Origin: Candidatus Gastranaerophilales bacterium
Lineage (GTDB): Bacteria > Cyanobacteriota > Vampirovibrionia > Gastranaerophilales > Gastranaerophilaceae
Direction: 5' to 3'
Assembly: GCA_947589705.1 (NCBI GenBank)
Contig: CANQCO010000007.1
Span: forward strand, 1-36,184
DNA: 36,184 bases
The notes under the pieces were generated by a model. The model saw only the letters and a list, made by a program, of their open reading frames with translations, had not been told where the DNA came from and did not search any database. The number at the start of each line of letters is the position of its first letter. Position 1 is the first letter of the stretch. Shown piece by piece: positions 21,234 through 24,426 of the stretch. The position numbers and the translations under genes were made by a program.

Positions 21234-22541
21234 ATGAAATTTAAAAAATATTTAGCTTGTTTTTTTATTTTAATATTATTAAATTCAATTTGTCCTATGG
21301 AAGTTCTCGCAAAATCTTATAAGGTTGATTTCCTATATAGAAAAAATATGTATAAAGTTCATGATAAAAAAAACAAATACGGAATTGTTACAAAGTCAGG
21401 AATTGTAGTTATTCCCGTGGAGTATTCAAATCTTGCATTTTATGATGATTATATTTTTGCTGATAAAGACGGGAAGCGAGCTTGTTTTTCCCAAAATGGC
21501 AGTGTAATTATTCCTTTAAAATATGATAAAATTATTCCCAACACTCAATTTTTACCTGTAAACATTGATAATAAATGGGGTATTATTAATTATAATGATG
21601 AAATAATATTACCTATTGAATATCCGTTATTGAAAACTTCAGGTTATAACTATATATTCCAAAAGGAAGGTCAATTTGTATTTTTAAATCAAAATAATCA
21701 GTTTTTCTATATCAATGAGTTTAACGATATGAATTTTCTTAACCTCGGAAAAAATTTATTCGTTGTAGAAAAAAATCAAAAAAAAGGTGTTTATGATCTC
21801 AAACAAAAGAAAATAGTAATACCTCTAATATATAACGATGTTCAATATTTGTATGATAACCTGATTACAGTAAAAAACAAAGACAGATACGGAATTTATA
21901 AAACAGACGGACAAGTTTTATTTCATACTGTTTTAAAAAATATTTTAATGAATCATTGGACAACACATTTTATTGTTCAAAAAGAAAATAATTTATATGA
22001 CCTTTATAATTTTAGTGATTTAAAAAAGATATTTTCAGATATGGAAGAAGTGGGAGATGTTATTTCTAATAATGAAATTACACATATTAAAGCGAAGAAA
22101 AACAGTTTTTGGGCTTTAGAAGAATATAATAATAAAACCGGAAAAATTAGAAATATTTTACCTTATATTAATGAGGAGATATTGCATGATTCTATTATTA
22201 GAGAATATTGTTTAGCAAAAACAAACGGTAAATGGGCAAGTTATAGTACTAAAACAGGTGAAAAACTTATTCAATTTGATAATGATTTTATTGGCAAGGA
22301 TCCTTATTTTACAGGCTACATTTTATATTTAAACGGAGATAAAGTTTTATACGATATAAATACAAATGAGTACAAAGATTTTAAACAAATAAAAGCTAAA
22401 AGTAACAATGGAGCTATTGCTTTTGCGATATTTGGTGTAGTATTAAAAGTTGTTTGGTGGAGTTCTATAACAATTGATAAAATAGTTAATTGTAAAGAAT
22501 ATAAAAGAAATGCTGTTCCAAAGAAAATAAAAGTTTTGTAG
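21234..22541 (+). CDS. Secreted WG-repeat protein
   Basis: 435 aa. A signal peptide (FKKYLACFFILILLNSICPMEVLA) is followed by several WG/KWG-type beta repeats of about 35-45 residues: KYGIVTKSGIVVIPVEYSNL, GKRACFSQNGSVIIPLKYDKI, KWGIINYNDEIILPIEYPLL, KKGVYDLKQKKIVIPLIYNDV, RYGIYKTDGQVLFHTVLKNI and a late KWASYSTKTGEKLI. WG repeats form beta-propeller-like binding surfaces, usually extracellular. A hydrophobic stretch near the C-terminus (IAFAIFGVVLKVVWWSSITI) then a basic tail could anchor it. The start lies after an extended -10-like TGTTAGAAT (about 21199-21207); the Shine-Dalgarno is weak (AAGAG). No terminator is visible in the 95 bp before the convergent HNH gene. The ligand is unknown. 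Confidence 0.82.
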   Translation: MKFKKYLACFFILILLNSICPMEVLAKSYKVDFLYRKNMYKVHDKKNKYGIVTKSGIVVIPVEYSNLAFYDDYIFADKDGKRACFSQNGSVIIPLKYDKIIPNTQFLPVNIDNKWGIINYNDEIILPIEYPLLKTSGYNYIFQKEGQFVFLNQNNQFFYINEFNDMNFLNLGKNLFVVEKNQKKGVYDLKQKKIVIPLIYNDVQYLYDNLITVKNKDRYGIYKTDGQVLFHTVLKNILMNHWTTHFIVQKENNLYDLYNFSDLKKIFSDMEEVGDVISNNEITHIKAKKNSFWALEEYNNKTGKIRNILPYINEEILHDSIIREYCLAKTNGKWASYSTKTGEKLIQFDNDFIGKDPYFTGYILYLNGDKVLYDINTNEYKDFKQIKAKSNNGAIAFAIFGVVLKVVWWSSITIDKIVNCKEYKRNAVPKKIKVL

Positions 22542-22636: not shown

Positions 22637-23143
22637 TTATGCTTTGTAATTATGATTAACCTTATTATGTATACTTCTTGGCAGATAAACAATATTTTCA
22701 ACTCTGTTATCACCATAATTGTATATGTGATGTACAACAAAGGTTTCTTCTGGATATATTAGCTGAAGCTTATCGTATTCATTTTTCATACATGCAAATG
22801 CAACAAAATTATAAACTTTCGTATATTTTGCTAAATTTTTATAATTAGTTGTATCTAAATATATATTGTTTAAGTCTTCATTATTAAAATTACCTTTTTT
22901 CTGAGGAATTATATCTCCGTCTTGATTTATTCTTACATTTCCCCAATTACTTGCATAATAAAAATCTTTTGTTTTTCCTATTCTCCAAGCTTTATTATAT
23001 TTTTCTTTATCTTTTGAGGATTTTTCAAATTCTTTAGCAAGTTTTTTATCATTTACACTGTTATTTAATAATTCAATTAATTTTTTTTCGTCTTTTTTTT
23101 CCAATAATTGAATAATTTTTTCCTTTACTGCTTTTAAAGTCAT
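22637..23143 (-). CDS. Free-standing NUMOD4/HNH endonuclease
   Basis: 168 aa from the ATG at 23143, which has GAGGGGG just upstream. The track start at 23182 falls inside the -10 box (ATGTGGTATAAT read as MWYN) and cannot be on the same transcript. The N-terminal ~50 residues are charged helix. A NUMOD4-like segment (WRIGKTKDFYYASNWGNVRI) follows, then the HNH core VVHHIYNYGDNRVENIVYLPRSIHNKVNH with three candidate catalytic or metal histidines. This layout is typical of phage- or intron-linked homing endonucleases. No group I intron, intein or split host gene is apparent beside it. It could be a domesticated selfish gene or a defence nuclease. Confidence 0.8.
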   Translation of the reverse strand: MTLKAVKEKIIQLLEKKDEKKLIELLNNSVNDKKLAKEFEKSSKDKEKYNKAWRIGKTKDFYYASNWGNVRINQDGDIIPQKKGNFNNEDLNNIYLDTTNYKNLAKYTKVYNFVAFACMKNEYDKLQLIYPEETFVVHHIYNYGDNRVENIVYLPRSIHNKVNHNYKA

Positions 23144-23170
23144 AACCCCCTCACTCTTGTAAACAAAGTA

Positions 23171-23179
23171 ATTATACCA
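23171..23179 (-). promoter_or_regulatory. Extended -10 promoter of the HNH gene
   Basis: TGGTATAAT on the minus strand with a predicted start near 23164, giving a leader of about 20 nt that contains the strong Shine-Dalgarno. A TTTACCCAACA repeat unit lies immediately upstream of it. Confidence 0.65.
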
Positions 23180-23181
23180 CA

Positions 23182-23199
23182 TTTACCCAACAAAAAGCG
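23182..23199 (+). repeat. Direct repeat unit TTTACCCAACAAAAA-GCG (copy A)
   Basis: Matches copy B at 23392-23410 over its full length apart from one inserted T; a shorter relative (TTTAACCCAACA) lies at 24174-24185. The 190 bp between A and B hold AT-rich sequence with no ORF, plus a hairpin (ACACTGT 23362-23368 with ACAGTGT 23378-23384). Confidence 0.5.
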
Positions 23200-23391: not shown

Positions 23392-23500
23392 TTTACCCAA
23401 CAAAAATGCGGTTAAAATCAAAATTTTTAACCCCAAAATAGTTACGACGCCACAATTGACGCCAATATTTTGGTGCAAAAAAACAGAAAGGACTTTTATT
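23392..23500 (+). promoter_or_regulatory. Two-hairpin region upstream of the 165-aa gene
   Basis: Repeat copy B (23392-23410) runs into GGTTAAAA (23410-23417) paired with TTTTAACC (23425-23432). Directly afterwards CCAAAATA (23433-23440) pairs with TATTTTGG (23466-23473). The 25-nt loop of the second hairpin contains GACGCCA twice (about 23446-23452 and 23459-23465). AGAAAGGA, the Shine-Dalgarno, follows at 23485-23492. A TTGACG at 23456 could be a -35, but no good -10 follows, so whether the hairpins act in RNA or as DNA operators is open. Confidence 0.5.
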
Positions 23501-23995
23501 ATGGAACAGAATAAATTTTTAAATGAAAACCCGGAACAAGTTGTAATATTCCCTACCCCAAGGCAAATTATAATACATAGAGCAATACCAGAAAGAGCAT
23601 ACGGACTGTTTGACTCTGAAACAGGCAAACAAGCGGGAGATTTTAAGAAAGGTACAGACGGACAAGTTGAATTTACCAACTTAGACCCAAGTAAGCACTA
23701 TGATGTGGGAGCTATTGAAGGTATGGGAGATGAAAAGCCTCAATTTAGAATAAATTGGACCCAAAAAATGCGTGATAACACAGACACTATATTAAATAAT
23801 TCTGATAACCTGCCTGTAGAATTTCCTTGTGCTTATTACATAATAGATAACCGCAATAATTCAAATAACGCTTTTGACCTGGTTGATGATAATGGTGATA
23901 AGGTAGGAGAAGTTGCAAAATTAGCACCAACCGGTGATAAACCAAGATTTGTACAAGTTAATACTTTCAAAATGAAAGACGACACACAAAAATAA
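23501..23995 (+). CDS. Hypothetical protein, possible two-module beta protein (165 aa)
   Basis: Not recognised. The start at 23501 has AGAAAGGA 8 nt upstream; the track start (23456) adds 15 residues across the hairpin region. The product is acidic and soluble, without signal peptide or membrane segment. Two segments look related: AYGLFDSETGKQAGDFKKGTDGQVEFTNLD (about 33-62) and AFDLVDDNGDKVGEVAKLAPTGDKPRFVQVN (about 125-155). Each has a strand, an SETG/DDNG turn and a closing strand. The first resembles part of an Ig-like or Cna-B-like sandwich, but the resemblance is weak. It is a single-gene unit with an elaborate leader and a very stable terminator, which suggests high or tightly controlled expression. 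Confidence 0.65.
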   Translation: MEQNKFLNENPEQVVIFPTPRQIIIHRAIPERAYGLFDSETGKQAGDFKKGTDGQVEFTNLDPSKHYDVGAIEGMGDEKPQFRINWTQKMRDNTDTILNNSDNLPVEFPCAYYIIDNRNNSNNAFDLVDDNGDKVGEVAKLAPTGDKPRFVQVNTFKMKDDTQK

Positions 23996-24198: not shown

Positions 24199-24227
24199 TT
24201 TAAAGTGTTATTAAAATTTGTTATAAT
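24199..24227 (+). promoter_or_regulatory. Promoter of the structured RNA
   Basis: TTTAAA (24199-24204), 17 bp, then TATAAT (24222-24227) with TGT in front. The predicted start, 7 nt after the -10, is G24234, exactly the first base of the long terminal helix of the RNA. Confidence 0.7.
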
Positions 24228-24233
24228 GTATTT

Positions 24234-24318
24234 GATAGAATAATTGATAGTCCCAATAAATCGTACAGGGCGGAGTAATTTCTGTTATAGGGCATAACGA
24301 ACCCACAATTATTCTATC
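24234..24318 (+). ncRNA. Candidate novel structured RNA (about 85 nt)
   Basis: GATAGAATAATTG (24234-24246) is perfectly complementary to CAATTATTCTATC (24306-24318), a 13-bp closing helix that begins at the predicted transcription start. The 59-nt interior is GC-richer than the surroundings and can form GTTAT-AGGGC-ATAAC (about 24281-24295) and ACAG/CTGT. Two GGGC and two CCC tracts (TCCC near 24251, GAACCC near 24300) offer alternative or pseudoknot pairings. No reading frame with a start and ribosome binding site is present. No T-run follows the helix, so it may be a cis-element or an RNA processed at its 3' end. It does not match 6S, SRP, tmRNA, RNase P or any riboswitch core I can recall. 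Confidence 0.55.
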
Positions 24319-24397
24319 ACCTTATAATCAGTTTTTATGTCAGGTTACTTTCCTAAATAAAATTGTAATAATCATAATAAAATTAACCGATACGCCT

Positions 24398-24426
24398 TTT
24401 ACAAAAAAGATTTATAATTGTATAAT
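24398..24426 (+). promoter_or_regulatory. Promoter of atpD-atpC
   Basis: TTTACA (24398-24403), 17 bp, TATAAT (24421-24426), the closest match to consensus in the window. A second TATAAT overlaps at 24413. It yields a leader of about 24 nt with AAAAGGTG before the ATG, so atpD need not depend on the upstream structured RNA. Confidence 0.8.

Follow-up and report, generated by a model that had tools for sequence, protein, structure and literature searches.

In type III toxin-antitoxin loci (ToxIN, CptIN, TenpIN, AbiQ), tandem RNA repeats of 34-50 nt lie upstream of, and are co-transcribed with, a toxin of the ToxN fold, with a terminator between the two (PMC5086642, PMC12373285). AbiF/RCd22 joins a prophage-encoded structured RNA to a toxic protein partner, and direct RNA-protein binding occurs both in cis and in trans (PMC12373285). 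The MuF toxins of temperate phages consist of a MuF N-terminal part and an exchangeable C-terminal toxin, encoded by a gene beside the portal gene; a small open reading frame (ORF) is found downstream mainly when the MuF protein carries a toxin domain, and has been proposed as an immunity gene (PMC5576092). Fusions of MuF with PBECR domains (phage Barnase-EndoU-ColicinE5/D-RelE nucleases), whose active site comprises a histidine on a helix and a threonine in strand 4, are proposed to be injected RNases (PMC5512222). Here we describe a structured RNA located upstream of atpD in a 36,184-nucleotide stretch of Candidatus Gastranaerophilales DNA (contig CANQCO010000007.1; the whole stretch is hereafter called the window). 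We put at about 0.64 the probability that this RNA is an orphan belonging to a new family of structured RNAs, and that the family supplies the immunity (antitoxin) RNA for a polymorphic toxin carried by phages.

The system resembles type III loci, which are often phage-related, in combining an RNA, here the proposed antitoxin, with an endoribonuclease toxin, here a predicted one. However, the RNA is single and larger and faces the toxin gene convergently from its 3' side, and the toxin is a BECR-like domain that forms part of a head protein; upstream tandem repeats, co-transcription and an intervening terminator were absent from the loci examined. With a single convergent RNA and another toxin fold, the system is not type III by definition, though by analogy it probably works like it. 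As with AbiF/RCd22 (RF03085), a phage-encoded structured RNA stands beside a putative toxic protein, yet RCd22 lies upstream of an Abi_2/AbiD/F protein gene, is transcribed with it and contains two abiF motifs, whereas the RNA described here has no Rfam match. The immunity factors proposed for MuF polymorphic toxins are small proteins, and here an RNA occupies their place. PBECR domains share the His/Thr layout and the MuF fusion, but the part of PMC5512222 consulted mentions no RNA as their partner. Finally, the DUF3800-associated RNAs (Rfam DUF3800-I to -XI) are also small structured RNAs beside one protein family, and a relative carries one of them in an island of the same kind; their fold and partner protein differ.

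The RNA element and its family

The element in the window comprises the following features.

24199-24227, + strand: RNA promoter, extended -10 sigma-70 type, TTTAAA-17-TATAAT with TG at 24219-24220, 10 of 12 matches
24233-24319, + strand: structured RNA, four-helix and cloverleaf-like, subtype A
24233-24246, + strand: 5' strand of P1, pairing with 24306-24319; both-side changes in 11 of the 13 modelled P1 pairs of the family
24252-24270, + strand: P2 hairpin, CCC (24252-24254) with GGG (24268-24270), loop AAUAAAUCGUACA
24271-24284, + strand: P3 hairpin, CGGAG-UAAU-UUCUG, length differing between relatives
24290-24304, + strand: P4 hairpin, GGG (24290-24292) with CCC (24302-24304), loop CAUAACGAA
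24306-24319, + strand: 3' strand of P1; the opposite strand encodes the final codons and stop of the toxin gene, now lost

The two 14-nt arms of P1 are 100% complementary and form the sole perfect inverted repeat of at least 13 nt within 110 nt in the whole window. A preliminary description, made from the sequence of the window alone, had a perfect 13-bp helix closing 85 nt; the perfect helix stands, but it is 14 bp long and encloses an RNA of ~87 nt (24233-24319). Folding energy is -20.6 kcal/mol, versus -12.2 for shuffled sequences (z=-2.97). The promoter spacing gives a predicted start at ~24233-24234, in agreement with the extended -10 promoter and first-base start described before. The compact structure proposed there also holds, whereas the suggested GTTAT/ATAAC hairpin falls outside the conserved fold, its bases flanking P3 and lying in loop 4.

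A scan of Rfam 15 yielded 0 matches at the gathering score and none within the element at E<=10, and the relatives likewise had no match, so that the RNA is indeed uncatalogued. A self-cleaving RNA, one of the earlier suggestions, is disfavoured by the lack of Rfam ribozyme matches in any subtype. Neither ARAGORN nor Rfam matched a tRNA or tmRNA at the RNA, the sole tRNA found being an unrelated tRNA-His at another locus (L075). PADLOC returned 0 hits, and further copies, such as a miniature inverted-repeat transposable element (MITE) would have, were not found within the same genome. An encoded peptide was rejected because no ORF within the RNA is conserved.

A BLASTN search of 98 related genomes identified two real homologues (genomes G009 and G037), neither of which adjoins atpD, and an exact 20-mer search added one viral contig. 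A first covariance model built from these three sequences and the window found the RNA in 14 of 383 family genomes, and a second, fuller model in 16 of 383; a covariance search of a 194-genome phylum sample revealed no RNA outside the family. The 21 distinct RNAs all derive from Gastranaerophilales or from viral contigs with the same phage genes. They are ~85-120 nt long and consist of P1 (~13 bp), P2 (3-5 bp, with a usually AAUAAAUCGUA-like loop), a variable P3, and P4, with at least five interior subtypes, for which the letters A-E are our own naming. P2 occurs as CCC/GGG, CCA/UGG or UCU/AGG, and P4 as GGG/CCC, GUG/CAC, GCG/CGC or GGU/ACC. The same -35/-10 promoter precedes P1 in nearly all 21, and a terminator U-run directly follows P1 in most toxin-linked copies, being decayed in most orphans, the window copy included.

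Compensatory changes were found in all four helices. In the model alignment of the 21 RNAs 98.6% of cells are paired and 17 of 21 pairs show both-side changes. Because this alignment was built to fit the structure, the paired percentage is inflated and the counts may be somewhat too high. The covariation score was 0.540, whereas shuffled controls reached 0.189 and slid partners no more than 0.111, with slid controls at most 46% paired, and because this gap to the controls is large the conclusion on the fold is safe despite the fitted alignment. Wobble cells comprise 27 G-U and 0 A-C, therefore selection acts on the + strand. The RNA thus has a conserved four-helix fold, on the + strand and with its own promoter; the homologues and covariance model by which the preliminary description proposed to check its helix bear it out, P1 included.

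Two side observations concern the surroundings of the RNA. Many of its promoters, such as that at window 24199-24216, contain two TTTAAA-like repeats spaced by ~10-15 nt (GGGTTTAAA...TTTTAAAA), which may serve as a regulator site. Downstream of the RNA in some subtypes (L095, L099, L143, L149) a conserved 37-38-aa ORF resembling a membrane peptide (MKNKIKKILNRIL...) lies on the strand of the toxin.

Association with a putative toxin domain of a phage head protein

The phage copies of the RNA lie convergent to the gene of a Mu gpF-like minor head protein of ~430-470 aa, located beside portal and terminase genes, and at loci with an intact toxin gene P1 holds the stop codon of that MuF gene. The RNA tracks the C-terminal ~200 aa of the protein. 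With phages carrying this domain located by C-domain alignment, the covariance model found the RNA in 15 of 15 domain loci and in 0 of 22 MuF loci lacking the domain; additional toxin loci with the RNA were recognised by eye. Named records encoding the domain are mostly Candidatus Gastranaerophilales or Melainabacteria, and the domain was not found in the annotated phages of INPHARED. The genes beyond the RNA vary and no other gene is universally beside the toxin; at one locus (L148) the RNA alone separates the toxin from a tail gene. That a small protein rather than the RNA confers immunity was rejected, the small downstream ORFs being of differing families or missing. Two chromosomes (G164 and UBA3803) carry the bare domain with the RNA, with no head genes and near a gene that, from our reading of the ORF, is RNase G/E-like. 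For MuF proteins without the toxin domain (L112-L130), the next gene mostly encodes a DNA adenine methylase-like protein, which suggests a different phage lineage.

Between phages that are otherwise nearly identical, the toxin tip is exchanged as one with its RNA. In two of them (G104 and L149) the MuF part and linker share 94% identity, the tip and the RNA cannot be aligned, and 90% identity resumes from the -10 box of the RNA onward. Across 13 loci, RNA similarity tracks that of the toxin tip once the MuF part is accounted for (partial r=0.46, p=0.0006), in contrast to similarity to the MuF part given the tip (p=0.55). A MuF N-domain encoded beside the portal, with a variable C-terminal toxin exchanged along with the RNA, is the arrangement of a MuF polymorphic toxin, and by analogy the joint exchange is the behaviour of polymorphic-toxin toxin/immunity cassettes. 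We infer that the RNA is the immunity determinant swapped with the tip.

The domain itself appears to be a PBECR (BECR-fold) endoribonuclease, judging from profile matches and a predicted structure. Among 11 members, 8 matched PBECR3 in Pfam (E<=0.1, best 1.6e-6), 6 matched PBECR2 and 2 matched MuF_C. H103 and T184 are invariant in the domain alignment, and the predicted model (mean pLDDT 80) places H103 on a helix (98-105) and T184 on the last long strand (E178-189), that is, a His-bearing helix and then strands, with Thr/Ser in the fourth, in agreement with the PBECR active-site layout (PMC5512222). Foldseek matches among viral proteins include MuF C-terminal domain proteins at E ~1e-5.

The window copy is an orphan

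Two further features bear on the copy in the window.

24309-24341, - strand: remnant of the toxin gene 3' end, reading DIKTDYKVIE*, compared with ...KDYKKIE* in intact toxins
24398-24426, + strand: atpD promoter, separate from that of the RNA, TTTACA-17-TATAAT; the same motif precedes atpD in relatives

Because the toxin has been cut to its last codons and the genome (G000) has no toxin domain elsewhere, the window RNA is an orphan. Similar remnants are found in G037 (...NNYKVIE*), in G017 (...QKIYKKIE*) and in G170 (~35 codons). P1-P4 and the promoter are intact in the window copy and the U-run is decayed (CACCTTAT), therefore function of this RNA is plausible, not certain. What the preliminary description could not see is the real context of the RNA, namely the 3' terminus of a MuF toxin gene from a phage.

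The adjacency to atpD is accidental: the relatives are located elsewhere, and a close relative (G020), whose AtpD was 100% identical in the search, has no RNA at this spot, homology to its atpD locus resuming at 24342, right after the remnant. The atpD promoter, already described as atpD's own, scores better than that of the RNA, and an atpD leader or riboswitch was rejected given this separate promoter and the other locations of the relatives. The earlier suggestion of a riboswitch-like P1 likewise fails, since toxin-linked relatives have no downstream gene on the strand of the RNA and mostly a U-run after P1. With its own promoter, the element is probably a separate small RNA independent of atpD, as was one of the options before.

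In the genus (L060-L064, L096, L100), atpD directly follows rpsI in several relatives and variable islands separate them in others; the orphan RNAs of G017 and G003 adjoin rpsI. Just upstream of the window RNA (subtype A), 23456-23995 encodes a 179-aa protein of no known family, and a homologue (L096 6667-7296, G017) lies just upstream of a different orphan RNA, of subtype C. Farther upstream are a 181-aa ORF with a weak HNH_3 match (22637-23182, E 0.015) and a WG-repeat protein (21234-22541). Another small RNA with promoter and terminator occurs in the same region, at L040 ~1255-1360 (G020, upstream of atpD) and L100 411-457 (G003). It resembles Rfam DUF3800-XI (31.6 bits in G003, gathering 37.8) and precedes a DUF3800 gene in G003; in G020 no such gene is found up to atpD, and that copy looks like an orphan RNA partner too.

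Interpretation and alternative explanations

The PBECR RNase domain would travel inside or on the phage head and enter the cell upon infection. A lysogen would make the RNA constitutively from the convergent gene, and the folded RNA would bind its cognate RNase domain directly and block it, shielding the lysogen from its own and from incoming toxin. Such direct inhibition, as in ToxIN or AbiF/RCd22, is the mechanism that we favour by analogy. Orphan RNAs may protect against phages with a matching toxin, or may be decaying remnants.

Several points weigh against this interpretation. Toxicity, delivery, binding and neutralisation are steps that we infer, beside the pairing, exchange, fold and orphan status that were observed. 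Fisher's test on the loci with and without the domain (p=1e-10) is not independent, because these belong partly to different phage lineages. Most Pfam matches of the domain are below gathering (28.4 against a cutoff of 30 for the member shown in full), divergent KHS-type tips match PBECR weakly or not at all, and Foldseek of the domain against the PDB gave no significant match. The decayed U-run of the orphans suggests weakened function. The pseudoknot raised in the preliminary description has a candidate between loops 2 and 4 (UCGU:ACGA, or CUCG:CGAG in G156) with a permutation p=0.16; no loop-loop contact is statistically supported, and a pseudoknot is possible. Pairing alone would also fit a role as substrate, as regulator, or as partner in folding or packaging.

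The RNA might accordingly be a partner of the PBECR domain other than an inhibitor, i.e. a specific substrate, an activating cofactor or a virion-loading RNA. Tight pairing and co-exchange fit any specific partner and structured RNAs are known in other phage roles, but the retention of orphans after toxin loss fits immunity better than packaging or activation, as do the chromosomal domain-RNA modules with no head gene, and we regard this alternative as unlikely. A cis-antisense regulator (type I-like) that pairs with the 3' end of the toxin mRNA and lowers its expression is more doubtful still: although the RNA runs convergent to the toxin gene and covers its final codons and stop, this overlap is only ~20 nt, selection acts on P2-P4 outside the coding sequence, such covariation is unnecessary for an antisense RNA, and an orphan would have no target.

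Block exchange of a gene with a structured 3' element would also be expected if the element were not an RNA at all, and instead a DNA recombination site (an attC-like folded site) ending an exchangeable toxin cassette, and folded single-stranded DNA gives G-T wobbles as well. However, the conserved promoter starts transcription exactly at P1 and a U-run ends the RNA, the R boxes GTTRRRY / RYYYAAC are absent in 19 of 21, and the exchange boundaries fall in the coding linker and at the -10, with no shared core site, which makes such a site very improbable. The AT-richness of P1, and the inability of a single copy to reveal covariation, would have allowed for an inverted repeat arisen by chance, or for a local terminator, within AT-rich spacer DNA; the 21 diverged copies with their compensatory changes refute this, leaving it a negligible chance.

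The broader form of the immunity reading, that phage-head polymorphic toxins can be neutralised by RNA rather than protein, that tip and RNA move between phages as one cassette and that host chromosomes retain orphans, such as that upstream of atpD, for immunity to matching phages, is put forward tentatively, at somewhat less than even odds. No report of the family RNA, or of RNA immunity to MuF toxins, came up in searches of open-access papers. If the immunity reading is true, then as far as the open-access literature shows this would be the first case of an RNA acting as immunity factor against a toxin that is polymorphic or virion-delivered, and the first of an RNA antitoxin to a BECR/PBECR RNase. 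The RNA gives a specific handle on PBECR head-protein domains, and the findings suggest that orphan small RNAs on bacterial chromosomes may be shields against phage toxins.
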